From NCBI GenBank assembly GCA_902778455.1, contig CACYXR010000007.1, forward strand, positions 1-64,000: a stretch of DNA of 64,000 nucleotides, written 5' to 3'. The DNA comes from an uncultured Selenomonadaceae bacterium. GTDB lineage: Bacteria > Bacillota > Negativicutes > Selenomonadales > Selenomonadaceae. Shown here in pieces: positions 2,053-59,233 of the stretch (positions are counted from its first letter, which is position 1; each line of letters opens with the position of its first letter). Both the position numbers and the translations under genes were made by a program. A model generated the notes under the pieces. The model did no database searches, was not told the origin of the DNA, and was given only the letters and a program-made list of their open reading frames with translations.

Positions 2053-3593
2053 TTGATAGACTTTTGAAAGACATGCTCATCATACAGACTTTTAGCTGCA
2101 TCATTCATTCTTCTTAAATTTATCTCCTCGTTTGACGCAGACGTATGCAGATATTCCCATACAGGCATTGCATCTGTTTTGAATCTATCTTCATTTGTAT
2201 TTAATATGTGTGCTAATTTTTCTTTAAGTTCCGGACTTCTTTTTTTACCATTCACACAATTATTTTCCTGGGGATTGAACACTAAAAATCCAGCATACAA
2301 ACTTTCCTCGACCTCAATACCAAACCAAAGTTCCAGACCATCGAATCCCAGCTGTACGGAATTGCATTTATAGTATACTCCGGGAAATATTTTTTTTGCT
2401 GCGTATTGTTCAACACAACAACTATAATCTCCCCATTTATCTTGATCATCTTCTCTCATTGCTGGCGGAATTCTTTCCAAATCATAGGAAGCTCCTATTT
2501 TTTGCATTTCTGTATCAAGAACATGAAAAATTTCTTTCACTAACTCCTTACCTGTTCGAATTTTATAGAGCGGCGACTCCTGATATCTTTGTCTAAGTTC
2601 ATTAACAAGAATTTTGGAATCTATCTCTGACAAATATGGTTTGGCAGCAGTCGTCAGTAAAAAGTTTTTCCCACCAAGAAGTTTTGCCAAGTCTTCCAAA
2701 GCAATAGCTTGAATGTCTTCTTCTTTCCTCAACTCTGGTGTCAATAGCTCCACATCGAGGTACATTTCTTCATTAGCCTTATCCTCCCTGATCTTATTTG
2801 ATTTTATGAGGCCTGCGCCTATCACGCCTTTACCCCCATAATAATAAAAAATGTAATCTTCCTGATTAAATTTATTTAGATCAACACCTGCTTCACCGTA
2901 AGCACTAACCCTTCTATTTTTGAACATATCCCAAACCACGTTATTTGTTTTATTGATTATGAATATAATTCCCTTTTTGTCTTTTGGATTTATATGATAG
3001 TCATATGGCTTGGCAAAGAACTCAAAGAACATCTCACCGTGAATATTATATAGACGATAAGGAAGAAAATCAATATCAATTCCTTTATCCTTCCAGTAAG
3101 TTATGGCTTCAATAAGTTTTACATCAGATGAACTGCCCACGATAATCATTATTTGCTTTTGATTAAAATTTTCTCTCGGCAACGGTTTCTCCAATCCGAA
3201 TATAACCTGATGTTCTTCAGCGAGAATATCATTTGCATCTTCCTTTCCCTTATATCCTTTATATAGGCGATCAAGTTCTGTATATTCCTTTCTACCATAT
3301 TTTTGTGTATAGCGCATAATCTGAATGGTAGTATCTTCGTTAACGTTGCTGCGTTTCAACTCGAAAATAACTAAATTTCCCGCTTCATCCAGCGCCAACA
3401 AATCCGGCTCTGGCTGAAACGGGCGTTCCTGAAAGATAGGCATGAGCTGCCCATTTTCCGCATAGAGTTTTCCAAGATTCTGCGCCAGCAAATTTTCGAG
3501 ATCCTTTTCATTATTACCTATATCAGCATAATCATAAAACCTCATCGCCTCCAAAGATAATGTTTTGCCCGCTTGTTTAAATTGATATAACAT
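1980..3593 (-). CDS. PD-(D/E)XK nuclease with NucS-like N-terminal domain
   Basis: This 537-residue protein begins with a region resembling NucS/DUF91-type endonucleases. The active-site pattern is visible as EPDLLALDEAGNLVIFELKRS at about residues 75-95, that is D, then ExK. The remaining 400 residues are unrecognised apart from a C-terminal part that may resemble DUF4268-like nuclease-associated domains. The start at 3593 follows GAGGATGATAAGGT. The gene is strongly AT-rich (many AAA, ATA and TTA codons) compared with the GC-rich core genes, which suggests recent transfer. Its last 20 or so codons come from a tandem duplication and are probably not the ancestral C-terminus. A DNA-cleaving defence role is inferred from the motif and the setting. 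Confidence 0.65.
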   Translation of the reverse strand: MLYQFKQAGKTLSLEAMRFYDYADIGNNEKDLENLLAQNLGKLYAENGQLMPIFQERPFQPEPDLLALDEAGNLVIFELKRSNVNEDTTIQIMRYTQKYGRKEYTELDRLYKGYKGKEDANDILAEEHQVIFGLEKPLPRENFNQKQIMIIVGSSSDVKLIEAITYWKDKGIDIDFLPYRLYNIHGEMFFEFFAKPYDYHINPKDKKGIIFIINKTNNVVWDMFKNRRVSAYGEAGVDLNKFNQEDYIFYYYGGKGVIGAGLIKSNKIREDKANEEMYLDVELLTPELRKEEDIQAIALEDLAKLLGGKNFLLTTAAKPYLSEIDSKILVNELRQRYQESPLYKIRTGKELVKEIFHVLDTEMQKIGASYDLERIPPAMREDDQDKWGDYSCCVEQYAAKKIFPGVYYKCNSVQLGFDGLELWFGIEVEESLYAGFLVFNPQENNCVNGKKRSPELKEKLAHILNTNEDRFKTDAMPVWEYLHTSASNEEINLRRMNDAAKSLYDEHVFQKSINSMMEQIKDMLKHLRISPAVSTIS

Positions 3594-4148: not shown

Positions 4149-4787
4149 TTACAAGATGATATGAGAAATCATCTTTCCATCGCACTTTATAAGTGCGTTT
4201 ACGTCCGTTGCCCCGCTTTCCTTTATGACGAAAAGGATCCTGTTCTTGTGTTTCTTGTACCACTTCATCTCATCCAGCCATTGTCCTTCAGCCGGAAGTT
4301 TGAGATTGCAGTCCATAAACACAAACATCAATGACGAAGGGGACAACTGTAGGGAACCTCGGGTAAACGGCAGGAATACGGCCGCATATTCAGACGAGTC
4401 TTTGTCCGTACTCCAGTTTTCCAATAATTTCCGCGTCGGGATATGACGTAATCTCGGAGGACATATCCCGGCTTCATCAGCTGTATTCGACCAATAATAA
4501 TATCCGCAGCGCCGCACGATCAATTTGGGATCATGGAAGCACAGCTTTTCGATGCAGCTCAATATATCCTGAAAATCATCGGGTTGAACGGTCCGGGATG
4601 TGCTGAAAGAAAAAATGACCGAGCTTAATTCCGGCATCATCGTTTCTCCGCCAAACTGCCCTTCGATGCGTCTGCTGGGTGCATAAGAATTGTACCGCGC
4701 AGCCAGCGCGACATTCCTCTTGATGAAGCGGGCCAGTAAACGCCTTCCACCGTCTCTCCACCTTGTCATGCCTGCATTGTCATCCAC
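4149..4787 (-). CDS. Hypothetical protein at the 3' end of the FtsZ-like/AAA+ cluster
   Basis: The 212-residue product is not recognised. It may start at GTG 4787 (upstream GGACGGTGA) or at ATG 4769. The C-terminal third alternates hydrophobic strands and helices (LMFVFMDCNLKLP, then KNRILFVIKESG), which suggests an alpha/beta fold; a degenerate von Willebrand A domain was considered because such proteins accompany AAA+ ATPases, but no metal-site DxSxS motif is visible. It is downstream of one of the three palindrome promoters of the cluster, which argues for shared regulation. The 5' region contains several short overlapping frames, so the gene could be an N-terminally broken remnant. Confidence 0.5.
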   Translation of the reverse strand: MDDNAGMTRWRDGGRRLLARFIKRNVALAARYNSYAPSRRIEGQFGGETMMPELSSVIFSFSTSRTVQPDDFQDILSCIEKLCFHDPKLIVRRCGYYYWSNTADEAGICPPRLRHIPTRKLLENWSTDKDSSEYAAVFLPFTRGSLQLSPSSLMFVFMDCNLKLPAEGQWLDEMKWYKKHKNRILFVIKESGATDVNALIKCDGKMISHIIL

Positions 4788-4793
4788 GATGCT

Positions 4794-4892
4794 TCACCGT
4801 CCTTTTATTCCTTTACCACAACATATCGTTCCCGTATACCCGGAATCTGAATATACCAATTCAATAGTGGCATTAGAGTTATACCCAGCCAT
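4794..4892 (-). CDS. Short ORF between promoter and hypothetical gene
   Basis: An ATG at 4892, preceded by a good ribosome site (GGAAGGAGAATAAGA), opens a 32-codon frame (MAGYNSNATIELVYSD..., ending KGIKGR). It stops six bases before the GTG of the next gene. A second short frame, from ATG 4950 to 4879 (MRDGVSQETVIIAVRK...), overlaps its start. Either this is a true leader peptide with coupled translation, or these are pieces of one longer gene broken by frameshifts. The strong ribosome site favours translation of the 32-codon frame. Confidence 0.4.
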   Translation of the reverse strand: MAGYNSNATIELVYSDSGYTGTICCGKGIKGR

Positions 4893-5040
4893 TCTTATTC
4901 TCCTTCCGCACGGCAATGATTACTGTTTCCTGCGAAACTCCATCCCTCATACACCCGCACGGAATTCCGATGTATCGACAGAAATCAGTTCAGTATAGCA
5001 ATCTTTTCTTCCCCATGTCTTTCATTGTATCTTTATCCCC

Positions 5041-5080
5041 ATTATAAAAAAAGCCACATGCAATATTTTGCACATGGCCT
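5041..5080 (-). promoter_or_regulatory. Cluster promoter P1: palindrome plus TATAAT
   Basis: On the minus strand a dyad centred at 5065.5, with core TGCAATATTTTGCA (plus-strand order, 5059-5072) and imperfect outer arms gccacatg/cacatggc, lies immediately before TATAAT (5046-5041). The dyad centre is 19.5 bp from the hexamer, the same spacing as at the two other palindrome promoters of the cluster. A run of T follows the stem here, so it may also end transcription from the PolC-like gene. No good -35 hexamer is present, which hints at activator-dependent firing. Confidence 0.6.
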
Positions 5081-5126
5081 TTCATTGAAACGATTTTATC
5101 CACGTTGTTACATCATCGCATGACGT

Positions 5127-6494
5127 TTATGTCTTCTTCAGCGCGTCCCGAAAATATTGCCGAATAGCGAACCCCTCCTCCATCATTTCCATCGCTACGA
5201 GAAGCGCGTATTCGTCCTCCTGCGTCCAGCCGTCCGGAGAAAATCCCCTCGTGCTGCTTTCCAACGTGGATATAACGTCGTTCTCCCCATTGGCGATGGA
5301 AAGACAAACCTCTTCGTTAAGCTCTTCCACCGTTTCAAAAAACGCCCGATAGAATTTTCCCTGATCGACGCGCAGCTTGTAATAAAGCAGTCGCCAAGCC
5401 ATGATTGCAGAAGAGATACAATGTGCCATGGGGAACAGGTATCGGATTCGGTTGCAGTAACCGATGAACCACATCGGAACGCCGCGGGAAAGGAGTTCTT
5501 TTTTCTGTTCTTCCGAAAAGCCCTTTCCTTTTCTTATCCGCTCGGCATAAACAAAGGCCGGTTCCCGGTCGAATCCGGCTTTTTTCAAATAAGCAAAGAC
5601 ATCTTCCCGGCAGGTTGGCAATTCATTCTGTGTAATTATGCCGTTCTTAAGCAATCGTTCCCCGTTCCCAAGCCATACGCCCGTCCCGCGGCAAATTGCG
5701 AAAAGCCGTGCTATATCGTAAAGCCCGATGAGCTTGAAATGCGCAAGCACTTTCTCCGCGTATCGCTCCATCAATCCACGGACGCCGACGAAGGAACCGC
5801 CTTGTTGCAGCGTTTCTCCGACGGGCAAAGTATCGGAAGCATCGGCGAGCGGAATCTGTCCGGAGCGTATGCCCGTCAAGGCCGCAAGCCCGGAAAGCTG
5901 ATCTGTCGTTTGAGTCGTCAGCAAATGCAGCGTGGCCGACTCTGAAAATTTCATCTTCAAAACGCCGGTCTGCCCACCGTCCGATATACCTTCGTTTTTC
6001 TGCAAAGCCGCCATAACTACTCCCAATTTTTCGGACGGAATATTGTAATTGAAATCCGCTGAGTAATCGTGGGGAGCGCCATAGAAAAACCACGGTTCCA
6101 GGCCAAAGCCTTCGCCAATCATGGATTTCCCGCAAACGGGACAAACCTTGTCCGGTAGTTCCACACCAACGCGGACGCTCTCCGGCACGTTGAATTCCGA
6201 ATGCTTGCAATGCGCGCAGCGGTAATGAGGCGGCAGTGGATTGATGCCTCCGTTGACGCCTAAGAGATAAGCCAGAAAAGAGTTTCCAAGCGTGCCGCGA
6301 ATAGACACGTCCCCCGCGTCAAGCCCAGCTTTTGTGAAAGCGTCGCTGACAGCAAGCATCAGCACGTCCGCGCCGCATGCCGCAGCGTATTCCAGTTCTT
6401 CCTCGATGCGGTCGCTTACAATCTTCGGCAGAGTGTCACCGTATAGTTCAGCCGCCCGTGCGCGAATTTGTGATTCAAATTGATTTGCGTTCAT
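5127..6494 (-). CDS. PolC-like protein lacking polymerase catalytic residues
   Basis: The 455-residue protein resembles part of the palm/finger region of Gram-positive DNA polymerase III PolC, which is normally about 1400 residues. Residues 65-100 (SIRGTLGNSFLAYLLG, NPLPPHYRCAHCKHSEF) and a second CxxC at 118-121 match the PolC zinc-finger region, and a later stretch (ELPTCREDVFAYLKKAGF, then VRKGKG-like RIRKGKGFSEE, and YLFPMAHCISSAIMAWR) matches its downstream part. The catalytic PDIDLNF motif of PolC reads YSADFNY here, keeping one Asp (about D147) and losing the other, and the LDILGHDD motif reads FKLIGLYD. No PHP or exonuclease domain is present. It is therefore probably not an active polymerase. 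The start at 6494 has GGAGGG upstream. It lies in the operon of the FtsZ-like protein. Confidence 0.7.
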   Translation of the reverse strand: MNANQFESQIRARAAELYGDTLPKIVSDRIEEELEYAAACGADVLMLAVSDAFTKAGLDAGDVSIRGTLGNSFLAYLLGVNGGINPLPPHYRCAHCKHSEFNVPESVRVGVELPDKVCPVCGKSMIGEGFGLEPWFFYGAPHDYSADFNYNIPSEKLGVVMAALQKNEGISDGGQTGVLKMKFSESATLHLLTTQTTDQLSGLAALTGIRSGQIPLADASDTLPVGETLQQGGSFVGVRGLMERYAEKVLAHFKLIGLYDIARLFAICRGTGVWLGNGERLLKNGIITQNELPTCREDVFAYLKKAGFDREPAFVYAERIRKGKGFSEEQKKELLSRGVPMWFIGYCNRIRYLFPMAHCISSAIMAWRLLYYKLRVDQGKFYRAFFETVEELNEEVCLSIANGENDVISTLESSTRGFSPDGWTQEDEYALLVAMEMMEEGFAIRQYFRDALKKT

Positions 6495-6597
6495 TTTTCA
6501 TTCCCTCCATTGAAAGAAGACAGTGTATCTACTATGGACTACTTCAAATCCCCAGGAATATTCACCGTCAGCCATCATATCCCTGTTTTTGCCTTTA

Positions 6598-6684
6598 TTA
6601 CCCAATCAGCAACGCCTGATACTGCCTTTCCAATTTAGAATGAAGTGGCGCATCCTGCAACAGCTTCAGGTACTTTCCGTTGGA
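6598..6684 (-). pseudogene. Relic 3' end of a third FtsZ-like gene
   Basis: The minus strand encodes about 26 codons ending LERQYQALLIG and a stop, matching the C-terminus of the neighbouring FtsZ-like protein (SKQYQALLIGK). The 24 bases at 6601-6624 are identical to 6879-6902. Upstream the frame breaks at once. This is best read as the leftover of a duplicated or recombined FtsZ-like gene. Confidence 0.7.
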
Positions 6685-6750
6685 ACGTTATCACTTATAT
6701 CCTCGACGACAACAAATTTTGTATTTCCTTTCTCGCCTCTGCCTTACTAC

Positions 6751-6876
6751 TCATTCATACAGACAACCATACGCATCAAACCAATAGCAATGCTCTTGGA
6801 CAACCAGCGGATACCGAGCCTCGATGTTGTCCAACAGACTATACTTCGGATCGGACTTTTCCTTGAAATTCCTCAT
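6751..6876 (-). CDS. Small ORF overlapping the FtsZ-like gene stop (ATGA)
   Basis: A 41-codon frame (MRNFKEKSDPKYSLLDN..., ending DAYGCLYE) starts at an ATG that shares ATGA with the stop of the FtsZ-like gene, a usual layout for translational coupling. No family is recognised. It sits just before the relic copy of an FtsZ-like 3' end, so it may have arisen by the same rearrangement, either as the N-terminal piece of a gene or as a chance frame. Confidence 0.35.
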   Translation of the reverse strand: MRNFKEKSDPKYSLLDNIEARYPLVVQEHCYWFDAYGCLYE

Positions 6877-8042
6877 TTCCCAATCAGCAACGCCTGATAC
6901 TGTTTCGACATCGTATGATTGGTCGGCGCAGCCGTCAGCAGCTCCACATGCTTGCCGACAGACTCCCTGACTGTTTGCATCGCCGTGTAAAGTGAGCCGC
7001 ATGTCTCGCGGAAAAACATCGTATCGTCGGGAATCTCAACGCTGAACAGCAACCGTTCCATTCGCCCGAAGCGCTTACTTTTTTGAAGCATAGCCAGCGC
7101 TTCCACAACGGCGTCCTCCGCGTTCCCGGCAATGCCGTAGCCGAAAAACGCTTTCCCCGGCTCCTGCATGAAGTCCTTCAATAACGACGTCGGCATCTTC
7201 ATTCCCGGCAATTCGACAATGTCCCCAATTGCCCGGATCAAATGACAGGCGGTAAATTCCCTGTCCGCCGCAGGAACGTAATCGGAAACGTCCAGCACTA
7301 CGTCCACTTTTCGCGACAACAGACGCGTCAACTGACCGCCCTGTGCCTTTGCGCTGTTTGTTCCCTGCCGAAAAGAGGACAGCACGGCAATCGACACAAT
7401 GTCGAGTTCCCGCGCTACATCACCGATAGCCGCCGCCGTCCGCACAGACATCACATTGTCCACGTCCACCAGCATCGCGACATATTCCCTTGCTTCCAGT
7501 TCTTCCCACAGTCTTGCCAGCGTAATATCCGGCTCGGAAGGAATCGCCAGGAATCTACTCTCAGCCATGCGCCCATACTCCTTGACAGCCACAGGCGCGA
7601 CGCCCGCCGTGTTCGCCCGGAGTTCCCGCCATGTCGGGTAGCTCGTCGAGCCTACGCACGCCACGAGATACGGACGTTTTCTTTCTTCCGGCAAACGGCG
7701 CATCAAAAAGCATTGGCGCAGCGCGTCGCAAAGTTCCTTCTGCCCCTCCGCCACAAAGCAATTCATTTGAAGCCCGCGCTGAATCGGCGTGGAACGCGTG
7801 AAAATGAATTGTACGTCGCTTGGCTGGAAGCAGGATAAGTGCCAATAGAGCTTCTTAAGTGTCTTTTTCCCCAGCTTCCACGGATTCACCACTGCCCCGG
7901 TGCAATGTTCACTGAACAGCGACCTCGGGCTTTGCTCCACACGGACATAATATCGGTCGATTGGCAAAACATTTTCGACAATCTCTCGATACACGTCTTC
8001 CAGGCCGTAAAGGATGATGGTTTCTCGTTCCGTATCGTACAT
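6873..8042 (-). CDS. Degenerate FtsZ/tubulin-like protein 1
   Basis: Starting at ATG 8042 (GGGAGG nine bases upstream) the product is 389 residues. Its middle and C-terminal parts follow FtsZ: residues 186-225 (YVAMLVDVDNVMSVRTAAA...IVSIAVLSS) correspond to the segment that carries the GGGTGTG GTP-binding loop in FtsZ, here replaced by VDNVMSVRT; residues 288-320 (LLKDFMQEPGKAFFGYGIAG) match the FtsZ DVRTVMKNAGTALMGIG segment. The first 120 residues match nothing known to me. GTP binding is therefore doubtful. The gene is the first of an operon with a small ORF and the PolC-like gene, driven by a palindrome promoter. It could be a scaffold, an FtsZ partner or a decoy. The fold assignment is reasonably secure, the role is not. 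Confidence 0.65.
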   Translation of the reverse strand: MYDTERETIILYGLEDVYREIVENVLPIDRYYVRVEQSPRSLFSEHCTGAVVNPWKLGKKTLKKLYWHLSCFQPSDVQFIFTRSTPIQRGLQMNCFVAEGQKELCDALRQCFLMRRLPEERKRPYLVACVGSTSYPTWRELRANTAGVAPVAVKEYGRMAESRFLAIPSEPDITLARLWEELEAREYVAMLVDVDNVMSVRTAAAIGDVARELDIVSIAVLSSFRQGTNSAKAQGGQLTRLLSRKVDVVLDVSDYVPAADREFTACHLIRAIGDIVELPGMKMPTSLLKDFMQEPGKAFFGYGIAGNAEDAVVEALAMLQKSKRFGRMERLLFSVEIPDDTMFFRETCGSLYTAMQTVRESVGKHVELLTAAPTNHTMSKQYQALLIGK

Positions 8043-8108
8043 TTCTATCCCTCCCGTATGGCAGGATTTCCCCTCCTGCGATTCAGCCGCTTTTGTCCCT
8101 TTGCATTT

Positions 8109-8153
8109 ATTATAAACGAGGCCATGTGCAGAATTTTGCACATGGCCTCGTTT
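8109..8153 (-). promoter_or_regulatory. Cluster promoter P2: 17-bp-arm palindrome plus TATAAT
   Basis: Perfect 17-base arms (8114-8130 and 8137-8153) surround a 6-base centre; the core is TGCAGAATTTTGCA at 8127-8140. On the minus strand TATAAT occupies 8114-8109, touching the dyad arm, and the dyad centre (8133.5) is 19.5 bp upstream. The FtsZ-like gene starts 67 bases downstream. The likely binder is a dimeric regulator, perhaps the WYL protein of the cluster. Confidence 0.65.
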
Positions 8154-8220
8154 GAAAAATGATTTTTCACTTATTCCTGAAATTCTCCGCTAGCTTGACT
8201 TGTCAATAATCTGCCCTTGA

Positions 8221-10278
8221 TTATGTGCCGGCAATATCCCGAAACAACTCCCCTAAATCTTCCTCCGTTGGCGCGAAGGAAGCCGCGTCCGCCAGCAAAT
8301 CGCTCTCGTTGTCAAATCCGCAAGACACCATATCGGCGATAGAAACAACTGTGTTTTCCGCAAAATCCCGAAGCGATACCCCTGCGTTTTCTTCTGCCGT
8401 ACGATATCCGCCGTCGAACGAAAAAGGCGCCGCAATCTCAAGGATGTTGTTGCCGAAACGCTCTCTTACCGTCCAAACCCGCCTCGGATAGAGATAAAAT
8501 CCGCAAACGCCTATCGCGTGATAGGATGCCGTACGCAAATACTTTCCCTGAAAAGAATGCCAACGAAAACGTACCGCCCACCGATCCACATGGTAATGGT
8601 TTTCAAGGTGGTCGACATTCCGATACGTGAACCAGACATCTTCCAGCAGCAAGGACTTTTCGGCAAAAATAACGGCGTCGCCGGACTGGACGATGTTGTA
8701 TTCCGGTTTATTGTAATAATCACAGACGATTTCTCCCGCCTTGGAGCGAAGAAACTTCTCTTTGAATTCCTCAAACGCCTCAGGTCGGTGCCACCGTCGC
8801 CAAAAATTCTCTTCAAGCCGGAACCACCGACGTTGAAACTCCTCTATGCTGTCCACAAAAAGCCGAAGCGGCCAATCGCACCACCCCGGCCCACATCGGT
8901 CGTTCAACGTAACCATGGCAATCTTTTTTCGTGTCTGCCCTTTTGTTCCTATGCACCGAACCTTCATGCCCTGCTTTTGACGATGGAACCACGCCAGCTT
9001 TTCCCGCCACGGCCAGAACCGTCCCGTATATCCGTCCTCCCATGGATTCGGTTCTACGTTCCGTAGCACACGGGGTGCGATGCGTTCCAGGTAGGCATTC
9101 CATCGCGTTTCGTCCTTGGCGTTCCTTGCAATCGTTACGCCCGACGAATCATCCAAGTATTCATTGTCCCGAAAAAAACGATCAATATAACTGAGGCCGC
9201 AACCGCCGCGCTCCCACTCCTTTCTCGTTTCGTAGACATCCAACGCTTTTATCCAGCGCCTACAGAAACGGTTTCGTATCATAGTGTAAAAATTCTTTTC
9301 TTCTAGATGATACCCCAAAAACGTCCTCATATAATCCCGGAAATCGTCTACAATTCTCCGTTCCTCATGCGCCTCTGCCCGCGTTTCCAGAGCCGCCGCC
9401 CTCGCTCTCATTCGATTGCGCCTCTGTCTCGGAGTTATCCTTGCCTGAAAGGCCTTTTCTGCAATCGCCTCCGCGATAGTCTGCACGTCTTCTATGGCCA
9501 CCAGAATCATTCCCTTCGCTCGCTTTAACGAGGAATGATAAAGACGGGCGTCATGCTGGAATGCTCTTGTTCCCCAAAGCATGCGATGCACATTGATAAG
9601 ATTCGGCGCATTCCACCGGCTTATATCCCTGCGGAAGGAATACGCCGAGAGGAACATCGACGCCATGGTCTCGACTCTGCCCACATCCCAGCCGCCGATG
9701 TCTCCGTTGAAGCTTCTTGCTCCGCAAAACATCTCGCTCATGTCCGTAACTTTTGATACATTCCAGCGGCCGATATTTCTGTTGAATCGCCTCGCAACGA
9801 AAAACATCCTGCACATATTCGTGACATGCGACACGTCCCAGCGGGCAATATCCCCGTTGAAACGACGCGCCTCGGCAAACATTTCCGACATATCCGTGAC
9901 CTTGGATACATCCCAGCGGCTGATGTCTGCCGCAAAAGCCCTTGCCCCCGCAAACATTCCGCTCATATCGGTAACATTCGACACATCCCAGCAGCTAATA
10001 TCCTCATTGAAGGAAACCGCAACGCGGAACATGTTTTTCATATCCGTAACATTCGATACGTTCCATGAAGAAATTCCCGAAAAATCCGAGCGTACGAAAT
10101 GAAAGCGCAAATCGTTGTCTAATTCCGCCATAAACAATTCACTCATATCCGTAATATGTATAGTATCGATTTTCCCCAGAGAAACAGATTCGTCGTTTAC
10201 GAGTTCCTGCAATTCCGCCTTTGTCCTTGGGCAATATTGATTCCTTTCATTCTTCGATATACGCGAATGATCCGCCAT
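8221..10278 (-). CDS. DUF285 (BspA-type) repeat protein without signal peptide
   Basis: This 685-residue protein has about seven to eight repeats of 33 residues between roughly residues 65 and 290, each following the DUF285 pattern WDVSNVTDMSGMFAGAxxFN. DUF285 repeats are normally found in surface lipoproteins, but here the N-terminus (MADHSRISKNERNQYCPRTK) has no signal sequence, so the protein should be cytoplasmic. The C-terminal 390 residues are rich in Arg, Trp and Phe, with no family I recognise. The start at 10278 is preceded by AGGAG. It lies between the two FtsZ-like genes. A recognition or scaffold surface is a reasonable inference from the repeats. Confidence 0.75.
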   Translation of the reverse strand: MADHSRISKNERNQYCPRTKAELQELVNDESVSLGKIDTIHITDMSELFMAELDNDLRFHFVRSDFSGISSWNVSNVTDMKNMFRVAVSFNEDISCWDVSNVTDMSGMFAGARAFAADISRWDVSKVTDMSEMFAEARRFNGDIARWDVSHVTNMCRMFFVARRFNRNIGRWNVSKVTDMSEMFCGARSFNGDIGGWDVGRVETMASMFLSAYSFRRDISRWNAPNLINVHRMLWGTRAFQHDARLYHSSLKRAKGMILVAIEDVQTIAEAIAEKAFQARITPRQRRNRMRARAAALETRAEAHEERRIVDDFRDYMRTFLGYHLEEKNFYTMIRNRFCRRWIKALDVYETRKEWERGGCGLSYIDRFFRDNEYLDDSSGVTIARNAKDETRWNAYLERIAPRVLRNVEPNPWEDGYTGRFWPWREKLAWFHRQKQGMKVRCIGTKGQTRKKIAMVTLNDRCGPGWCDWPLRLFVDSIEEFQRRWFRLEENFWRRWHRPEAFEEFKEKFLRSKAGEIVCDYYNKPEYNIVQSGDAVIFAEKSLLLEDVWFTYRNVDHLENHYHVDRWAVRFRWHSFQGKYLRTASYHAIGVCGFYLYPRRVWTVRERFGNNILEIAAPFSFDGGYRTAEENAGVSLRDFAENTVVSIADMVSCGFDNESDLLADAASFAPTEEDLGELFRDIAGT

Positions 10279-10299
10279 CTTATATTCTCCTGTTTTTCC

Positions 10300-10336
10300 G
10301 TAAATTTGCTTTCCGATTGGTTAGAAAGCAGTTTAC
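10300..10336 (-). promoter_or_regulatory. Hairpin in the leader of the DUF285 gene
   Basis: GTAAATTTGCTTTC (10300-10313) pairs with GAAAGCAGTTTAC (10324-10336) around a 10-base loop, about 20 bases upstream of the DUF285 ribosome site. It differs from the cluster palindrome. It may be an operator, an attenuator or the end of the upstream transcript. Confidence 0.35.
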
Positions 10337-10400
10337 GACCTGATATCGTCTTGTTTCTCCGACAACAAAAATCTTGCAGACAATACGTCCGTCGCCCACA

Positions 10401-10688
10401 TCATCCGCCATTTCTCTGAATGTTCAAGAGAAGACATGATATCCGTTCATCGCCGTATATCTCCCGTACATTGGGAAGGATTTCGACAATGCTGCCCGGA
10501 TAGCAGAAGTCAAATAAGTGCCCTTTTTCGCTTTCCGCGCGTATGAGGAATCGCCGCTCTCCATCGAGCTCAATATCGCCCATCAAAAAAGCGAGATTCC
10601 GGTGTCGGGCTCCGTCCCAAAAAAGCGTTTCTTTATAGGCAGATTCTTCATCATGCAGCCCCTTTACGTATGCGGGGTAGCCCGCCAC
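10401..10688 (-). CDS. Hypothetical 95-residue protein
   Basis: A small acidic protein (MAGYPAYVKGLHDEESAYKE...) of alternating strand-like segments such as ERRFLIRAES and DERISCLLLNIQ. It starts 12 bases after the stop of the second FtsZ-like gene, so it belongs to that transcript. No family is recognised. A small beta-rich partner of the FtsZ-like protein is possible but unproven. Confidence 0.6.
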   Translation of the reverse strand: MAGYPAYVKGLHDEESAYKETLFWDGARHRNLAFLMGDIELDGERRFLIRAESEKGHLFDFCYPGSIVEILPNVREIYGDERISCLLLNIQRNGG

Positions 10689-10700
10689 TAGCTGCTCCTT

Positions 10701-11564
10701 TCACGATAACTCTGGCAGCGGGTTAGTGGAGGCCAGCATGATGATACGAGAGGGCAAGGAGTCTTCAACCCGCACTGAAAGCACGATTTGAGCGTCGTCC
10801 ATAATCTTATCCACCATGTCCACCGACTCAAAAACGTCAACGATAGCAGTTGTCGGGCTGTTGTCCTCCACGCAAAAAAGCACACGCCGGATTTCCCCCA
10901 CATCTCCTACTTTTGCGGCAATCGTAGCGTCGATAATCTCCTTGACCGTCTTGGCATGTCTCACCTTTTTCGGATTGTCCGTCGGCAGTTGCGCGGAAAT
11001 CATGGACAGGGCAATCCCCGCTGCCGTCTTGGTACGTCGCACATCGTCCGACTTGTCCGTCGACATATATCCCCAGCCTACATACATATTCCCTGCGGCA
11101 CGCACTAGAGAACAAACGTCACTGTAGTCCAGTCCAACCAATCCCGGCCGCTCCAGCATGTGACCGATTCCCTCGATTACGGCAGCAACTCCTTCGGACG
11201 TCGTCGCGTGGCCTGCTGCACACACCTTCGACACGTCCACGACAGCATCGAAAGCCTTGCAAAGCGAAGCGTTCATCGTTTCCCATGTTTTCTTGTCCAA
11301 AAGGGGTACGTTCAGTGCCATGACCACGCTCGGCGTATCCTGCTTTTCCAGCAGTTTCCCGGCACGCTCGATGAGAGCTACGTCATGGGAATCCGCCACA
11401 TCGAAAACCGGAAAGATAAACCCGATTTCGTTTCCCGCCTCCGCTATCTGCTTCTCAAGCTCCGGCGAATCTAAGGCGAGATGCTCCGGTACTTTCCATT
11501 CGGTATAAAGCCCCGAATATTCAAAGTCATTTTTTTCTTTGAGATAAAACCCATAAATCTGCAT
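10701..11564 (-). CDS. Degenerate FtsZ/tubulin-like protein 2
   Basis: The 287-residue product keeps the FtsZ core order. Residues 46-60 (EIGFIFPVFDVADSH) occupy the place of the GTP-binding GGGTGTG loop and have lost it; residues 77-90 (TPSVVMALNVPLLD) match the following strand; residues 139-190 (RPGLVGLDYSDVCSLVRAAG, then YVGWGYMSTD) match FtsZ GLINVDFADVRTVMKNAG and its ALMGIG turn. The tail (EIRRVLFCVEDNSP) matches the FtsZ C-terminal domain. It lacks the N-terminal nucleotide motifs entirely and is short compared with FtsZ (about 350-400). It is a diverged relative of the other FtsZ-like protein in this cluster. It is part of a run with receiver-like, HD and protease genes. Confidence 0.65.
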   Translation of the reverse strand: MQIYGFYLKEKNDFEYSGLYTEWKVPEHLALDSPELEKQIAEAGNEIGFIFPVFDVADSHDVALIERAGKLLEKQDTPSVVMALNVPLLDKKTWETMNASLCKAFDAVVDVSKVCAAGHATTSEGVAAVIEGIGHMLERPGLVGLDYSDVCSLVRAAGNMYVGWGYMSTDKSDDVRRTKTAAGIALSMISAQLPTDNPKKVRHAKTVKEIIDATIAAKVGDVGEIRRVLFCVEDNSPTTAIVDVFESVDMVDKIMDDAQIVLSVRVEDSLPSRIIMLASTNPLPELS

Positions 11565-11597
11565 AATCTTTCCCTCCGTACCGGAAGCGCCGTTCCA

Positions 11598-11933
11598 TCA
11601 CAACCTTAACGGCCATCCATTCTTCTCAATAATTCTCTGCATATTTATCCTTCCGACAGGATTTTCGCTGTGAACGCGAAATACAATGCATGCTTCGGGG
11701 TTATCAAAGGTAAAGCCGGTATCCTCAATCCAATCGAGGATGCGGATGTAATCTCCACCGTCGCTGGAATAGTCACCGGCGTCATGGTCGAGATCCAAAA
11801 GGACGCTTGAGCCGCCCCCCTTCATCGACGCAAGATAAGCAATGACCTCATTTACGCTATAGAATGCAATATCGTAATCTGCCGGTTTAGGCCGAAGGTC
11901 GTCAACCCAAACTTTTACCTCTTTCACTTTCAT
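11598..11933 (-). CDS. Cyclic-phosphate-processing receiver-like protein
   Basis: The 111-residue protein (EVKVWVDDLRPKPADYDIAF, then SVLLDLDHDAGDY) matches the small single-domain family annotated as cyclic-phosphate processing receiver domain, with the acidic VDD and LDLDHD clusters near residues 9-11 and 46-51. Family members are often found next to ligases or nucleotide-processing enzymes; their biochemistry is mostly predicted. It follows the HD gene by 15 bases and precedes the second FtsZ-like gene by 33 bases, so the three are co-transcribed. Confidence 0.7.
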   Translation of the reverse strand: MKVKEVKVWVDDLRPKPADYDIAFYSVNEVIAYLASMKGGGSSVLLDLDHDAGDYSSDGGDYIRILDWIEDTGFTFDNPEACIVFRVHSENPVGRINMQRIIEKNGWPLRL

Positions 11934-11948
11934 GGATTTGCCTTCTTT

Positions 11949-12500
11949 TCATTTCTCCAAGACCATGCTGCTCCATGTATCGGCATATTGCAACAGCAGT
12001 GTCAGCGGCGTTTCGCGCATCGCCACGCTTCGATTATCCTCCACATATTGCCCGTCGTGGTAGACAATCGCCTGCGCTTCCTCTTCCTTCAACGGGAAGC
12101 GCGAAGCAATCAGATAGAGGCTCCGAATCGGAACGTTCAAATACACAAGGTCTTTATTCCAATAGTACGGCTGCTTCCATTTGCTGTCCGGCGAATTTTT
12201 CAGATACAGTGGATTATTCGGCATTCCCACCTTGCCAAGATCGTGCAAAAGCGCGACGACAACGCAGCTTTCATCGCTAATCTCCGGCGCAAGCGTCGCT
12301 TTGAGCTTCAGCAAAGTTTCCGCCACGTTGACGCTGTGCTCCAGTAGCCCTCCTTCCTTGCAGAGATGGAACTTCGTCGAGGCCGGAGCCGTCAGGTATT
12401 CCGTTTCCGTTTCCACGAATTTCATCAGCTCTGCAAATTCCGCCCAACGCTCCGAGACCTTTTCCTTCAGCGCTTCATACCGCGCCGCCAATCCGTCCAT
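11949..12500 (-). CDS. HD-domain phosphohydrolase-like protein
   Basis: This 183-residue protein shows an HD-fold metal site: His in GLLEHSVNVAETLLKL, then the paired LLHDLGKVGMP, and a later Asp in LLLQYADTWSSM. HD proteins hydrolyse phosphomonoesters or diesters of nucleotides, or act as signalling enzymes; the substrate cannot be told from sequence. It begins 23 bases after the FtsH-like gene and ends 15 bases before the receiver-like gene, forming one transcript. Confidence 0.75.
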   Translation of the reverse strand: MDGLAARYEALKEKVSERWAEFAELMKFVETETEYLTAPASTKFHLCKEGGLLEHSVNVAETLLKLKATLAPEISDESCVVVALLHDLGKVGMPNNPLYLKNSPDSKWKQPYYWNKDLVYLNVPIRSLYLIASRFPLKEEEAQAIVYHDGQYVEDNRSVAMRETPLTLLLQYADTWSSMVLEK

Positions 12501-12523
12501 TTCGTTTTTCCTCCCGATTCATG

Positions 12524-13804
12524 TCATGCGCACTGCGTATTCTTGCCTGCAAATTGCTCCCTGATGCTCTGCATCTCCCGGAACGTCACCGTCTTGTGAT
12601 CGAGCAAGGCCTCCGTCACAGCGTCTAGGAACGCCCTGTTCTCGATAATGATCCGTTTGGCAATCTGATAGTACCTTGTAATCTCCGAGGCCATCAGCCT
12701 GTCTTTTCGCTCCAATAGATATGCGGAAGAATTAAATCCCTCAAATGTCTCGAAGCCCAGTGTGCAATTGTTGTCCACCAACACGCTTACCTTATTGAAC
12801 ACCTTGTGCATATCGCCATTGCATCCCATATCCGCCGTCCCATAGACAACTTCCGTTGCGGCTTTCCCCCCGAGACCGGAAATGATATCATGCTCCTGAA
12901 GCTCCTTGGAAGACGAATAGCCCTCGGGAGGGCACAACTTCGTAAATCCCTCGGTGGAGCCGGTATGCCTGCAGACAGAAATGAGCGTCACGATTCCCGG
13001 ATCCAGCACTTCGGCTACAACGGCATGTCCGGCTTCATGCAATGCCGCTTTTTTGGTATCCGCATTGTTCACCGGATTCATGCACTCGGGAGATTCAAAC
13101 ATCATGCGCATATTGGCTTTGACAATATCTTCCTGGTCGATTTTTTCCTTGCCGACAAACCCGGCATAAATTCCGGCCTCGTTGATGACCGTTTCCAGCT
13201 CGGCGCACGATCTGCCTTCCATAAGTCTGGCCAATTCTTCGATATCCACATTGCCCATGATTTGTTTCTGGCTCAAAAAATACGCAATAATCTGCTCGGC
13301 GTCTTTTCCGCTGGGATTATTGACTTCAATCACCTTGTCAAATCTGCCCGCCCTGAGAAGCGAATCCGGCAGGCAATGCTTGTCATTCACGGTAGCCAGT
13401 ACAAAAACGCCCTGCCCTTTGCATTCGTCAATGCACGCCTGTACCGTCACATACTCCTCCGCGTTCGGGTGGTTGGAATCCTCATTGGCAAATTTATCCA
13501 TGTCGTCAAGGAATACGATCACAGGCGATTTTTCCTTTGCCTTTTCAAAGGTTGCCTTTATCTGATTGATAAAGTCGCCGTTCGGCTTGTCCTTGCGGAG
13601 AGTAAACACCTTGCAGCCCGCCTCGGCGATGAAACAATTTGCCATCAGCGTCTTCCCGAGACCGGGCTCTCCGTACAGGAGCAGACCACTCGGCACGTTG
13701 ACCCCCAACTTCAAATATTTCTTCGTATTCTTGATGACGTCCGCAAAGCGGATCAGTTCCATCTTGATGTCGTCATATCCGATGACCTTGTCAAACGCTT
13801 TCAT
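12524..13804 (-). CDS. Soluble FtsH-like AAA+ zinc protease
   Basis: The 426-residue protein joins a AAA+ ATPase domain with an M41 peptidase domain, as in FtsH. Walker A is GEPGLGKT at 45-52, Walker B VIVFLDD at 95-101, and the arginine-finger region LLRAGRFD at 149-156. The zinc site is HEAGH at 256-260, with the third ligand probably Asp331 in GCNGDM, matching the FtsH GASNDL motif. FtsH is normally 600-700 residues with two N-terminal membrane helices; this protein has none, so it should be cytoplasmic. It is likely to unfold and degrade specific proteins. Its genes on both sides suggest that substrates or adaptors include the FtsZ-like and receiver-like proteins. Confidence 0.85.
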   Translation of the reverse strand: MKAFDKVIGYDDIKMELIRFADVIKNTKKYLKLGVNVPSGLLLYGEPGLGKTLMANCFIAEAGCKVFTLRKDKPNGDFINQIKATFEKAKEKSPVIVFLDDMDKFANEDSNHPNAEEYVTVQACIDECKGQGVFVLATVNDKHCLPDSLLRAGRFDKVIEVNNPSGKDAEQIIAYFLSQKQIMGNVDIEELARLMEGRSCAELETVINEAGIYAGFVGKEKIDQEDIVKANMRMMFESPECMNPVNNADTKKAALHEAGHAVVAEVLDPGIVTLISVCRHTGSTEGFTKLCPPEGYSSSKELQEHDIISGLGGKAATEVVYGTADMGCNGDMHKVFNKVSVLVDNNCTLGFETFEGFNSSAYLLERKDRLMASEITRYYQIAKRIIIENRAFLDAVTEALLDHKTVTFREMQSIREQFAGKNTQCA

Positions 13805-13832
13805 GATAACCCTCCCGTTCCTTAGCTACCTT

Positions 13833-14873
13833 TTACCGCTTTTGTTGCTCGCCCTGCTCCCGGCAATACACTTCGTACATCCCCCGCACGATTTCCGCGA
13901 CGCTTTTTCGCAGGCTGTTCGGCGCAAGTACTTCCACATAGTCGCCGTACTGAAGCGCCCAGTATTTCATGGCCATTTCATTGCACCGCACAAGAACTTC
14001 CATCTCGCCGTTCTCCCGTTTCAGGATTTTGAATTCTTTTCCGAACCAGTCCACCAGCGCATCCATCATCCATTCTTCCGTCCGAAGCCGGATTGATATG
14101 ATTCGACCGCTGAACATATAGAAATGCTGGGTAAAGTATTCGGAAAGCGTGGTCGTCTTCAGTTCTTCTATCCGATGCCTATCCTTGACCGGCTCATCCA
14201 AAAGCGCAACGTCCGTCATGCGGTCCAGACGACAGTGCCCTATATTTTCGTGCGGTTCCATATTTCCGACGATGTAATAGCGCCCCTGGCTCAGGATCAT
14301 TTCATAAGGACTGAAGGTATAGAGCTCTTCCTTTTTCGGATGGAAATTGAAGTCTGTATCATAGGTATTGTAGTGGAAGCTGATTTTCTTTCCATCCTCA
14401 ATGGCTTTTTGGATTACGCTGACATTTTTCAATGTCTGCTCGTTGTCAGAGTACGGCATTTTTTTACAATGGCGAAGAAAACGCTCTGCACGCTTTTTGA
14501 AGCTGTGCGAACCCGCCGAAAACAGACGTTCAATCAGCCCTTTCGCCTGTTTCTGCGAAATGTTCCGAGAAAAAAGCACGCCGTCAATCAGCATACGAAG
14601 TTCAGCGTCCGTAAATTCCTGCGGTTCTTTCTTGATATAGCAGCCCACTTTTTTCCTGACGATCGGATAGCCATCCTCCTGCAGCATCCGGATATAAGTA
14701 TGCAAGGAACGCGTACTGCACGGAACCTCGTATTGGTTCTGCAAAAGCTCAATGATTTTCTTTCGCTGCAACAAATGATTTTCACTTGAATAATTACGTA
14801 AAATCTCCAGGATGTAGAGAACCTTAAGCAGATTATTTTTGGCCATTCCGCCCTCTTTTTCCATTTCTCCCAT
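13833..14873 (-). CDS. WYL-domain transcription regulator
   Basis: The 346-residue protein has an N-terminal winged-helix region (residues about 12-75, with CSTRSLHTYIRMLQEDG as recognition helix) and a WYL domain at about 155-245 (KISFHYNTYDTDFNF, then FSPYEMILSQGRYYIVG). WYL regulators sense ligands such as nucleotides or single-stranded DNA and are common in defence regions. It lies between the CbbX-like and FtsH-like genes. It is the only DNA-binding regulator in the cluster and so the best candidate to bind the three cluster palindromes. Starts at 14873, 14864 and 14846 are possible; none has a strong ribosome site. Confidence 0.8.
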   Translation of the reverse strand: MGEMEKEGGMAKNNLLKVLYILEILRNYSSENHLLQRKKIIELLQNQYEVPCSTRSLHTYIRMLQEDGYPIVRKKVGCYIKKEPQEFTDAELRMLIDGVLFSRNISQKQAKGLIERLFSAGSHSFKKRAERFLRHCKKMPYSDNEQTLKNVSVIQKAIEDGKKISFHYNTYDTDFNFHPKKEELYTFSPYEMILSQGRYYIVGNMEPHENIGHCRLDRMTDVALLDEPVKDRHRIEELKTTTLSEYFTQHFYMFSGRIISIRLRTEEWMMDALVDWFGKEFKILKRENGEMEVLVRCNEMAMKYWALQYGDYVEVLAPNSLRKSVAEIVRGMYEVYCREQGEQQKR

Positions 14874-14964
14874 GTTCTTCGCCGGTATCCCGGCTTCCCC
14901 CTTTCACTTATAAAAGTCTTTTCACCTGTAATTTTATCAAACGCGGCAAAGGATTGCACCCGCT

Positions 14965-17010
14965 TTATACGAACCCGATGCCGATGCTCTTTTTCGCGTA
15001 GCGGTCGGAAAGATTAACCTCAAAATCGACAGGAGCCAGCTTCAAAAGCTCGTCGCGCGTCATCGGCTGCCCATTGCTTTCGGTCATGATACGCTGGGAC
15101 TGCTTCAGGATCGCCTGCTCCAATAGATTGCGGGCAAATCTGCCGTTGCCGAATTCCTTTTCCGCGCACGCTGCCCGGAAGACGTCCCGACACCGAGCGA
15201 GAATCGGATCGTCCAGCTCATAGCCCCGCTCCTTCGCCATCAGCGAAAGAATCTGAATCAACTCATCGGCGTCGTAGTCCGGGAAATCCACATGGAACGC
15301 GATGCGGCTCCGAAGGCCCTCGTTCCTTGCAAGGAAGCCTTTCATCTTGTCCTTGTATCCGGCGAAAATGACAATCACGCTGTCGCGCTGATTTTCCATT
15401 TCCTGCACGATGGTATTGATGGCCTCGTCTCCGTAAAGGCCGTCTTTGCCGTCGACAAGAGAATAGGCTTCGTCGATGAACAGGACGCCGCCCCGCGCCT
15501 CCTTGAATTTCCTTTTGACCTGCGGAGCCGTCCAACCGACATACATGCCGACAAGGTCGCTGCGTCCGCACTCGACGAAGGTTCCGCTGTCCAGCACTCC
15601 CTCTTTTTTCAATATTTCCGCCAAAAGCCGTGCAACGGTGGTCTTCGCGCTGCCAGGGTTACCGGTGAAGATCATGTGCATCGAGCTCCTCTGCTTTGCG
15701 AGCCCGACCTCCGAGCGCATCTTCTGCACCTTGTTCGCCGCGATGATCTGGTCGATGATTTTCTTCACCTCCGTAAGACCGACCATCTCCTGCAAGCGTT
15801 CATAGGCCTCACCCTTCGTCTTTTTCTTCTCCGTCGTTACATAGGTCGCCGCCTTGTAAGCTTGGTAAAGTTTGTTCTTCAGCCCGTCCTTATAAAAACG
15901 GTTAAAAATCCCGTAGAGCTCCGAAGTTGTGAACGTCGTTTTCTCCCCGAGGGAATCCTCGATTTCTTTTTTGTCCATCACCTCAAAATCCGCCTCTTTG
16001 ACGAGACGGCGCAGATATCCTGCGGCATCCTTCCTGTTCCCCGCCCCCTCGCTGATCGCGACAACATCAATGTGTTCCTCCACCTTTGCCATCAGGGAAG
16101 GCGTGAAGCCCGGATTGTCGGTGCGTTCAATAAAAATACAAAGATCGTTCTGGTGATACTTTTTGATAAGATCGGAAATAAACTCCGTAACCCGTTCATA
16201 GGCCGAAGCGTAATTCGCGTGTTCCTCATTGGATCCTCGCAGTTCAATCACCAGCGCCGTGCCGGCCGCCTGCCGAAAGAGATTTTCCAGATCGCTCTCG
16301 TCATAGCAGCCCTCCTTGATCTCACTGATGACCGCAAGCCGGCGGCTAACCAAGCGCTCGCACGAATAGAGTGCTTCGGTCAGCAGCCGCGCAATCATCA
16401 TAGCAGTCTCCTGATTTCCGGCGACAATCTTATAATGCACAGGATGACCGTGAAAACGACGTACGTTCTTGTCCGAATAAATACGCGCCAATTCGTCTAA
16501 AAGGCTCCGGTCCGCAAGGAGCTCCTTCGCGCGGGACATCGCCGCTTTCTTCGTCAATGCGTCCGCTTCCTGCAGTTCCTCCCGCAGTTTGAACTGGTTG
16601 TTCTCGAAATAATCGATTTCGATATTGCACAGCGCCCGTCGGCAATCTGCGAGATAATTCGCATCATCCGCCTTCTGCACAGATTTTTGAAACTCCTTGG
16701 CAGTCAGCTCGCGTAATCCGGAAACGGAAAACGATTTCACGCCTCCTTTTTCCTTCAGCGCCGTCTTCAGTATCTCTTGCAGCCCCTGTACGGACGCCTT
16801 TTCCTTTTCACTGAACGCGGCGGCCATGTGCCATGCGTGAGGGCTGCCGCTGCTGATGAACACATATCTCGCATCATCATTTTCTTCCCAAAGAGAATCA
16901 TTGACGCCGGCCACAGCATTCCAGCCTTCCCTGCGGGTCGCCGCACAGGCTTTCTCCAATGTCTCTTCCCCCTCGTATTTGCACTCCAGCTTAAAACCAT
17001 AAAACAACAT
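14965..17010 (-). CDS. CbbX/SpoVK-type AAA+ ATPase with a degenerate first AAA region
   Basis: With ATG at 17010 (AGGAGG ten bases upstream) the product is 681 residues. The C-terminal half is a classic CbbX/SpoVK AAA+ domain: Walker A GNPGSAKT at 450-457, Walker B GVLFIDEA at 508-515, and a sensor-2 helix FGNGRFARNLLEQA. Residues about 190-350 look like another AAA fold whose Walker A is lost (VAGNQETAMMIARLL), as in tandem AAA+ proteins with one inactive ring. The first 190 residues are specific to this protein. It is the first gene of the cluster, under a palindrome promoter. CbbX relatives remodel or release bound ligands from partner proteins; remodelling of the FtsZ-like proteins is a possible job. 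Confidence 0.8.
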   Translation of the reverse strand: MLFYGFKLECKYEGEETLEKACAATRREGWNAVAGVNDSLWEENDDARYVFISSGSPHAWHMAAAFSEKEKASVQGLQEILKTALKEKGGVKSFSVSGLRELTAKEFQKSVQKADDANYLADCRRALCNIEIDYFENNQFKLREELQEADALTKKAAMSRAKELLADRSLLDELARIYSDKNVRRFHGHPVHYKIVAGNQETAMMIARLLTEALYSCERLVSRRLAVISEIKEGCYDESDLENLFRQAAGTALVIELRGSNEEHANYASAYERVTEFISDLIKKYHQNDLCIFIERTDNPGFTPSLMAKVEEHIDVVAISEGAGNRKDAAGYLRRLVKEADFEVMDKKEIEDSLGEKTTFTTSELYGIFNRFYKDGLKNKLYQAYKAATYVTTEKKKTKGEAYERLQEMVGLTEVKKIIDQIIAANKVQKMRSEVGLAKQRSSMHMIFTGNPGSAKTTVARLLAEILKKEGVLDSGTFVECGRSDLVGMYVGWTAPQVKRKFKEARGGVLFIDEAYSLVDGKDGLYGDEAINTIVQEMENQRDSVIVIFAGYKDKMKGFLARNEGLRSRIAFHVDFPDYDADELIQILSLMAKERGYELDDPILARCRDVFRAACAEKEFGNGRFARNLLEQAILKQSQRIMTESNGQPMTRDELLKLAPVDFEVNLSDRYAKKSIGIGFV

Positions 17011-17040
17011 CACACAACACCTCCTGCTTTTTTCACATTC

Positions 17041-17085
17041 ATCATAACAGAAGCGAGGTGCAAAATTTTGCACCTCGCTTCTGTT
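17041..17085 (-). promoter_or_regulatory. Cluster promoter P3: perfect 40-bp palindrome plus TATGAT
   Basis: Positions 17046-17085 form a perfect dyad without loop (20-base arms aacagaagcgaggtgcaaaa and its complement); the core is TGCAAAATTTTGCA at 17059-17072. On the minus strand TATGAT occupies 17046-17041, and the dyad centre (17065.5) is 19.5 bp upstream of it. The AAA+ gene starts 31 bases later. The dyad lies 16 bases after addA, but no run of T follows it, so an operator is more likely than a terminator. Confidence 0.65.
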
Positions 17086-17100
17086 GCTCAAAATATTTTT

Positions 17101-59211: not shown

Positions 59212-59233
59212 CTTTATTCAGCTTTATGCGATT

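Follow-up and report, generated by a model that had tools for sequence, protein, structure and literature searches.

A recurrent WYL/HD gene island of Selenomonadaceae with cut-down copies of division and replication proteins, possibly serving as bait for phage proteins

According to PMC9122601, BrxR-type WYL regulators act as repressors of defence genes, their genes are located together with defence systems, and a probable ligand site is present in the protein. The cREC receiver domain was defined, in a passage of PMC7824862, by its association with systems of NAD/ADP-ribose and cyclic nucleotides in which WYL proteins occur. In PARIS, in retrons activated by RecBCD inhibitors and in Panoptes, phage proteins directed against the host or its defences are sensed through a stand-in for their target, according to a section of PMC12409349. 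Here, a gene island is described in the window, that is, the whole stretch of 64,000 nucleotides that was analysed, which is contig C7 of the 2.6 Mb genome G000 and comes from a Schwartzia-like member of the Selenomonadaceae. Its minus strand carries, from about 17.0 kb down, the genes of a tandem-AAA protein, a WYL-domain regulator, an FtsH-like protease, an HD-domain protein, a cREC protein, FtsZ1, a 95-amino-acid (aa) open reading frame (ORF), a DUF285 protein, FtsZ2 and PolC-short. As stated in the original prediction, all the genes that it listed lay on one strand.

The island resembles BrxR/CapW defence islands in that a WYL regulator, matched by PADLOC WYL models, stands beside a nuclease gene and other conflict genes. 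Unlike in those islands, no BREX, CBASS or CRISPR set was present among the ten window proteins, and the cargo consists of copies of the host's FtsZ and replication proteins. The lure is a sensor protein in PARIS, a retron watching RecBCD in the second case and a decoy nucleotide in Panoptes, whereas cut-down housekeeping copies are predicted to take this part here. With cREC/NAD-ADP-ribose gene sets, the island shares the cREC and WYL genes of the window, a PARG gene near HD/WYL at locus L142 and an ADP-ribosylglycohydrolase gene at L150; in contrast to those sets, copies of FtsZ and PolC accompany these genes. The copies derive from the housekeeping genes for FtsZ and PolC, but the FtsZ-D copies described below lack the GTP signature, PolC-short lacks the DxD motif and the catalytic core, and both score far below the equivalog cut-offs. 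A PADLOC-DB scan of the ten window proteins completed no defence system, the matches reflecting shared domains (AAA of IetA, TRIP13, mad8, DolB and BrxC; WYL; Cas3-type HD; one weak Cas1), and no paper on this gene combination was found in the open-access literature searched. Therefore, the anatomy is claimed as new, namely, WYL/HD islands that recur and that hold division and replication proteins captured and cut down.

A recurrent island marked by WYL and/or HD genes is present in 18 genomes of the Selenomonadaceae, a family that dwells in the rumen, and it is proposed, with a probability of about 0.4, that its cut-down copies of host proteins act as bait for phage proteins. The HD gene (11949..12500, minus strand) was the best marker of the island. 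It was found in 31 of the 189 genomes of the family, as 39 rows on 36 contigs, and 31 contigs were examined, window included; left out were G053:C71 (coordinates the same as those of G027:C47), G171:C261, G177:C84, G008:C22 and G107:C56. An extra copy of FtsZ, PolC, DnaE, DnaA, DnaB or PcrA was present within 10 kb of HD at 20 of these 31 places, in 18 genomes; since some loci are near-copies, the 20 places are not independent. L148 (genome G114) was not counted because all that it offers is a normal-looking DnaE, which was taken as housekeeping on account of its intact motif. In L149 and L150, the DnaE adjoining the tandem AAA is the sole DnaE-type row of its genome and was treated likewise. 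The DnaB of L016/L132, in two overlapping frames, may be housekeeping, and L016 counts through its FtsZ copies anyway. The HD gene of L129 was placed by hand, and the loci come from contigs, with edges, of metagenome-assembled genomes (MAGs).

The association with WYL and HD was also found in loci gathered through another gene. Profile A2, which represents part of the tandem-AAA protein, gave at least 80 loci, mostly from Selenomonadaceae and also from Lachnospiraceae, Oscillospiraceae and a few others, with matches in 78 of the 189 Selenomonadaceae genomes. WYL was the commonest partner cluster of the tandem AAA (32 of 114 stretches, duplicates included). An extra copy was present at 9 of the 29 tandem-AAA loci with WYL/HD within 10 kb compared with 0 of the 50 without (Fisher p 4.9e-5), this control covering one gene family rather than whole genomes. 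Into this comparison, 79 loci were entered; L083, which had no long AAA frame, was left out, and matches removed by hand were the AddA of L007 and, as housekeeping genes, the DnaA of L012 and of L055.

The composition of the islands varied around these genes. L138 carries WYL, c97, FtsH, HD, FtsZ-D and an 896-aa PolC, in which the window's relative order of WYL, FtsH, HD, FtsZ-D and PolC is kept. WYL and HD occur with one FtsZ-D copy and two or three PolC pieces in L139 and L140. Two DnaA pieces, FtsZ-P, HD, an Mrr-type nuclease, a 565-aa DnaE, a further HD, tandem AAA and WYL follow one another in L158, and L129 combines HD and tandem AAA with three copies of FtsZ, a DnaA that lacks domain IV and the N-terminal part of a PcrA. 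Three DnaE/PolC-type copies were found in L136, and a DnaB C-terminal part with FtsZ-D in L151. Lachnospiraceae loci likewise carried a DnaB part (L022) or DnaB and DnaA parts (L082). Neighbours in other islands included PD-(D/E)XK and Mrr-type nucleases and a weak uracil-DNA-glycosylase match. The soluble FtsH had a relative over its full length only in L138, and L074, L075 and L077 gave matches over half of the length. Because FtsH relatives were this few and 50 of the 79 tandem-AAA loci had no WYL/HD, the constant part of the island is WYL and HD rather than AAA and FtsH. The conflict system of degenerate housekeeping paralogs that had been predicted is strongly supported by comparison in that the copies recur beside WYL/HD in other genera, are under selection and were captured repeatedly, and the predicted role of decoy or sensor would be compatible with these findings.

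Several further features were observed at these loci. In L159 and L160, from two Selenomonas genomes, WYL-AAA-HD lies between similar flanks with an FtsZ copy in one only, that is, a variable slot. At or near the tandem AAA of distant clostridia (L062, L064, L065, L066, L074, L075 and L077) there are ClpP-like genes, joined in L074, L075 and L077 by an FtsH-like AAA protein with a different second half and, by eye, a phosphatase-like protein. The DnaB adjoining the tandem AAA in L016:11673-13002 is split by a frame change near Walker A. Two Hsp70-like genes (550 and 527 aa) stand beside WYL and an FtsZ-D copy in L146:3604-8302, perhaps as another class of housekeeping copies.

Both FtsZ-like proteins of the window lacked the GTP loop, as had been predicted. 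In FtsZ1 (10701..11564, minus strand), the GTP signature GGGTGTG was absent, with FPVFDVADSHDVAL at that place; the replacements read FPVFDVADSHDVALIE in FtsZ1 and AMLVDVDNVMSVRTAA in FtsZ2 (6873..8141, minus strand; probable ATG start 8045). The T7 loop of FtsZ1, PGLVGLDYSDV compared with PGLINLDFADV in housekeeping FtsZ, has Asn changed to Gly and keeps both Asp. FtsZ1 matched TIGR00065 with an E value of 0.0019 (17.6 bits, cut-off 295.2) and profile A3, which contains FtsZ1 itself, with 7e-64. Its fold model was of low confidence, with a mean pLDDT (predicted local distance difference test) of 52, and the 50 matches listed were FtsZ with template modelling (TM) scores of 0.4-0.5, a result biased by the FtsZ rows in the input alignment. 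FtsZ2 did not match TIGR00065 and was related to FtsZ only remotely in a profile-profile comparison (E 7.6e-5 over 223 columns, probability 62); its fold model was too poor to use. Relatives of FtsZ2 were confined to its own genome among 100 genomes, with two proteins in a large database. The ORF at 4149..4787 (minus strand), which had been taken for the relic of a third FtsZ, was rejected as such, with a probability of 0.1; it has no FtsZ similarity, and its membership of the island is unsure.

Across genomes, the FtsZ copies were of two kinds, FtsZ-P and FtsZ-D; their positions were collected from 30 genomes outside genus g12, with L011 and L045 left out. The six FtsZ-P copies that were aligned all stop before the housekeeping tail. 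FtsZ-D, to which FtsZ1 belongs, had no GTP signature (20 rows), and the Asn-to-Gly change was common to 12 of the 20. The C-terminal half of FtsZ-D was closer than the GTP half to the FtsZ of G000 in 18 of 20 rows, with one tie and one reverse, two rows having almost no GTP half to compare; all seven FtsZ-P and housekeeping rows printed showed the reverse, the GTP half being closer. Judged from these alignments, FtsZ-D has lost the GTP face and keeps more of the C-terminal face bound by known FtsZ inhibitors. That face is a common target of SulA, MciZ and, as modelled, MinC, according to a passage of PMC11938149, and because SulA and MciZ bind it, phage inhibitors likely bind the face kept by FtsZ-D. 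The targets of phage proteins given in a part of PMC3594737 include DnaI, DnaN, FtsH and RecBCD, as well as FtsZ directly or indirectly. For PolC, DnaE and PcrA, no phage inhibitor was met in the literature, and no search aimed at one was made.

Some FtsZ copies were observed outside the islands or in unusual settings. Those of L115, L116, L117, L118, L121 and L124 lie away from WYL/HD; by eye, some of them stand beside vWA, PP2C and kinase-like genes, which we take to be TerY-P-like, and others beside TPR-like repeats. A C-terminal FtsZ piece in L108:2940-3776, adjoining a tandem AAA, is apparently fused to a RidA-like domain (by eye). Genus g12, which holds the Quinella loci, has up to 10 FtsZ matches per genome. 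A second pair of FtsZ-P and PolC-short was found in the window's own genome at a contig edge (L174:10248-12652, end of G000:C25).

Among the copies of replication proteins, PolC-short (5127..6494, minus strand) matched the PolC model at positions 602-746 and 925-1128, which flank the catalytic core rather than lie inside it, with 215.5 bits against TIGR01405 (cut-off 1043). It reads YSADFNYNIPS where PolC has KVPDIDLNFSG, so that the catalytic aspartates (PDID) are gone; a PolC-like protein without polymerase aspartates, SADFNYN being in their place, was thus correctly foreseen. The DxD motif was lost in all six members of this class, and of the seven long PolC copies (683-928 aa), six had lost the PHP histidines. 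The 565-aa DnaE copies end half way and have PEFKLGY for PDFDIDF (3 of 3). DnaA lacks domain IV in L129 and L114 and is cut at the other end in L082. The PcrA copy of L129 is an N-terminal piece without Walker A, and the DnaB copy of L022 is the C-terminal part alone.

To estimate selection on the copies, the ratio of nonsynonymous to synonymous substitution rates (dN/dS) was calculated by the Nei-Gojobori method; several far pairs were saturated, with many dS values above 1. It was 0.22-0.38 for FtsZ-D, 0.13-0.22 for FtsZ-P, 0.22-0.31 for the 565-aa DnaE, 0.29-0.45 for the PHP pieces, 0.14-0.18 for long PolC, 0.15-0.23 for PolC-short, 0.09 for the intact second PolC and 0.03-0.09 for the HD gene. 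Overall, the cut-down classes gave 0.13-0.45 where measurable, which indicates purifying selection. Since these values are low yet above those of HD, the cut-down copies are working proteins that evolve faster than their HD neighbour. This makes it extremely improbable that the islands are a neutral scrapyard in which duplicated genes degenerate at a permissive site next to WYL genes. The many truncations and the broken frames of the L155 tandem AAA and the L149 PolC would fit such decay, but dN/dS was well below 1 in every class, the same copy classes occurred in several genera, and the Asn-to-Gly change was shared by most FtsZ-D rows.

The trees indicated where the copies came from. The extra PolC of L147, L149 and L150 joined the housekeeping PolC of the same genus at 100/100, and that of genome G222 joined its own housekeeping PolC at 100/99; the Schwartzia-type long copies and PolC-short branched apart. 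FtsZ-P had at least two origins, one joining its own genus's housekeeping FtsZ at 100/99. FtsZ-D formed one side of the FtsZ tree (99/97) on long branches, because of which a single origin is unsure; 8 of 13 housekeeping FtsZ stretches gave a usable frame and entered this tree. The host's own lineage thus supplied copies of PolC and FtsZ on more than one occasion, which argues that likeness to the host's current protein matters. Another rival, that the copies serve an integrated element for its replication and partition and are related to the host's proteins by chance, appears very improbable. It would account for the several islands that lie between housekeeping genes and for a gene near some islands that resembles a plasmid replication initiator (by eye). 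However, the extra PolC copies nest within their own host lineage, the replication proteins are truncated or dead, no tandem AAA was found in viral contigs by a pattern scan, and no FtsZ1 was found in phage records. The HD protein had relatives in 35 phage records, with 32-36% identity across the 12 rows listed, and the DnaE copy had relatives at 8 viral loci, the best of which, L199, the sole one inspected, was a normal 1132-aa DnaE with PDIDIDF.

A number of observations weigh against the bait reading. No extra copy was found at 11 of the 31 HD places (L142-L145, L148, L152, L153, L155-L157 and L160) or at 20 of the 29 tandem-AAA loci with WYL/HD, and the 50 tandem-AAA loci without WYL/HD, mentioned above, count on the same side. 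Near-copies such as L114/L137 inflate the loci, just two proteins of the large database are closely related to FtsZ1, and FtsZ copies occur also away from WYL/HD. Homologs outside this neighbourhood were thus found for the AAA gene and some FtsZ relatives, which tells in part against the predicted system. The GGGxGxG loop is kept in 9 of the 11 FtsZ-P copies linked to WYL, HD, AAA or PolC-short, PDID in 5 of 7 long PolC copies, Walker A in the DnaA copies and three DnaB copies, and every motif checked in the extra PolC of L147, L149 (split in two frames) and L150. Therefore, not every copy is dead, yet all but three intact PolC genes are cut down. The kept GTP loops and the intact second PolC genes, the L149 frame being split, would suit spare versions of the proteins of division and replication, which would evade inhibitors from phages or toxins so that the cell can carry on, and many of which would since have decayed. 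This explanation is considered improbable since PolC-short, the 565-aa DnaE and FtsZ-D are unable to do the job, yet are under selection.

In L147 (3923-8367) and L150 (15578-19899), the intact second polC shares its last four bases with the frame of a WYL piece some 208 aa long, an arrangement that looks like co-translation. This piece matches only the C-terminal part of the window WYL protein.

The same features suit dominant-negative poisons, which also weighs against bait. According to this explanation, ranked next and considered rather unlikely, the copies are regulated poisons released when WYL control lifts, and the infected cell stops before the phage matures: tail-less or GTP-dead FtsZ would cap or jam filaments, DnaA lacking the DNA-binding domain and DnaB lacking the N-terminal half would spoil oligomers, and dead polymerases would stall forks. 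FtsZ-D, with its T7 aspartates and no GTP pocket, is as expected of an end cap; the truncations, including DnaA without domain IV and DnaB reduced to its C-terminal part, fit FtsZ, DnaA and DnaB; and repeated capture from the own lineage suits binding to the host's own partners. Arrest of this kind is less consistent with the 565-aa DnaE copies and PHP-only pieces, which stop before the enzyme's later half, and does not fit the second PolC of L147, L149 and L150, which by its motifs is apparently fully active. In addition, the nuclease and ADP-ribose genes would be superfluous.

Because the copies of host targets keep the company of nuclease, ADP-ribose and WYL genes, bait is regarded as their simplest reading. 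The variable slots of a WYL-controlled conflict island would hold bait copies of host proteins, and the WYL protein would keep the island low until an infection signal arrives; some other WYL proteins are activators. The bait would retain the surface bound by attackers while being unable to do the real protein's job, and once bound by a phage protein, it would soak that protein up. The loaded bait might then hand the phage protein to, or switch on, the HD protein, the tandem-AAA motor, the soluble FtsH, nucleases or ADP-ribose enzymes. A bolder formulation, held tentatively, is bait-array immunity, in which the cell's own division and replication genes are repeatedly copied into WYL islands and stripped to interchangeable lures, which would sense or absorb phage proteins directed at FtsZ, PolC, DnaE, DnaA, DnaB or PcrA and share an HD/AAA/protease/nuclease executioner.

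The enzymes and the regulator of the window were characterised further. The tandem-AAA protein (14965..17091, minus strand) more likely starts at the ATG at 17010 than at 17091, as in its homologs. Its second half carries Walker A and resembles CbbX (a Rubisco activase), SpoVK and EccA; the three sequences of solved relatives at E <= 1e-10 were CbbX, CbbX and EccA1. Unlike these proteins, it has an additional AAA-like first half without Walker A (by eye) and lies below all three equivalog cut-offs, with 273.9 bits against TIGR02881 (SpoVK, cut-off 422.95) and 248 against CbbX (cut-off 459). The predicted CbbX-type ATPase is therefore SpoVK/CbbX-like in its second half and falls short of the cut-off of either family. 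The FtsH-like protein (12524..13804, minus strand) has AAA and Peptidase_M41 domains with GEPGLGKT (Walker A) and the zinc site HEAGH, so that both the AAA and HEXXH features of FtsH are present; it scored 205.9 bits against TIGR01241 (cut-off 600). Its match begins only at model position 160, without the N-terminal membrane part, in agreement with the soluble protease described in the original prediction. The WYL protein (13833..14873, minus strand) has WYL and WCX domains above cut-off, matches a PADLOC WYL model at 3.8e-29, and gave, for a DNA-binding helix-turn-helix, only an HTH_11 match at E 0.16. The cREC_REC (cyclic-phosphate processing receiver) protein (11598..11933, minus strand) scored 57.1 bits (cut-off 27), and no solved relative of the HD protein was found. 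These two proteins, WYL and DUF285 had family matches as foreseen.

The remaining genes lie around these. No family match was found for the 95-aa ORF (10401..10688, minus strand), and the DUF285 (PARCEL repeat) protein (8221..10278, minus strand) has a C-terminal half outside any family matched; about 400 aa C-terminal to its repeats matched no family in domain searches. The gaps between frames were 91 bases for AAA/WYL, 28 for WYL/FtsH, 23 for FtsH/HD, 15 for HD/cREC, 33 for cREC/FtsZ1 and 12 for FtsZ1/95-aa ORF. As these are all 91 bases or less, one transcript is suggested for the first seven genes, from the tandem AAA to the 95-aa ORF. Further down, the gaps were 122 bases (95-aa ORF/DUF285), 79 (DUF285/FtsZ2), 378 (FtsZ2/PolC-short) and 339 (PolC-short/4149 ORF). 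A DUF2779 gene (158..1693, minus strand), relatives of which lie near WYL in L022, L073, L076, L077 and L082, and a putative nuclease gene (1980..3593, minus strand; weak NucS_C match, below cut-off) are possibly part of the island. The closest named relatives of the host are Schwartzia MAGs from ruminants; the tandem-AAA protein of L004 is 93% identical to that of the window, and its gene directly follows addAB, as in the window. An ordinary S-adenosylmethionine (SAM) riboswitch (RF00162) is located at 59099-59212 on the minus strand.

Even under the dominant-negative explanation, the copies would amount to naturally occurring poisons, under regulatory control, that act on the machineries of division and replication. 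If the bait reading is true, the islands would represent a new means by which bacteria sense an infection or weaken it, and would be the most literal bacterial counterpart of the decoy idea known from plants. Each bait would then be a hook with which to fish for new phage proteins that inhibit FtsZ, PolC or DnaA, all three of them sought after as targets for antibiotics, and the bait slots would be a readable record of the host proteins attacked by the phages of these bacteria.

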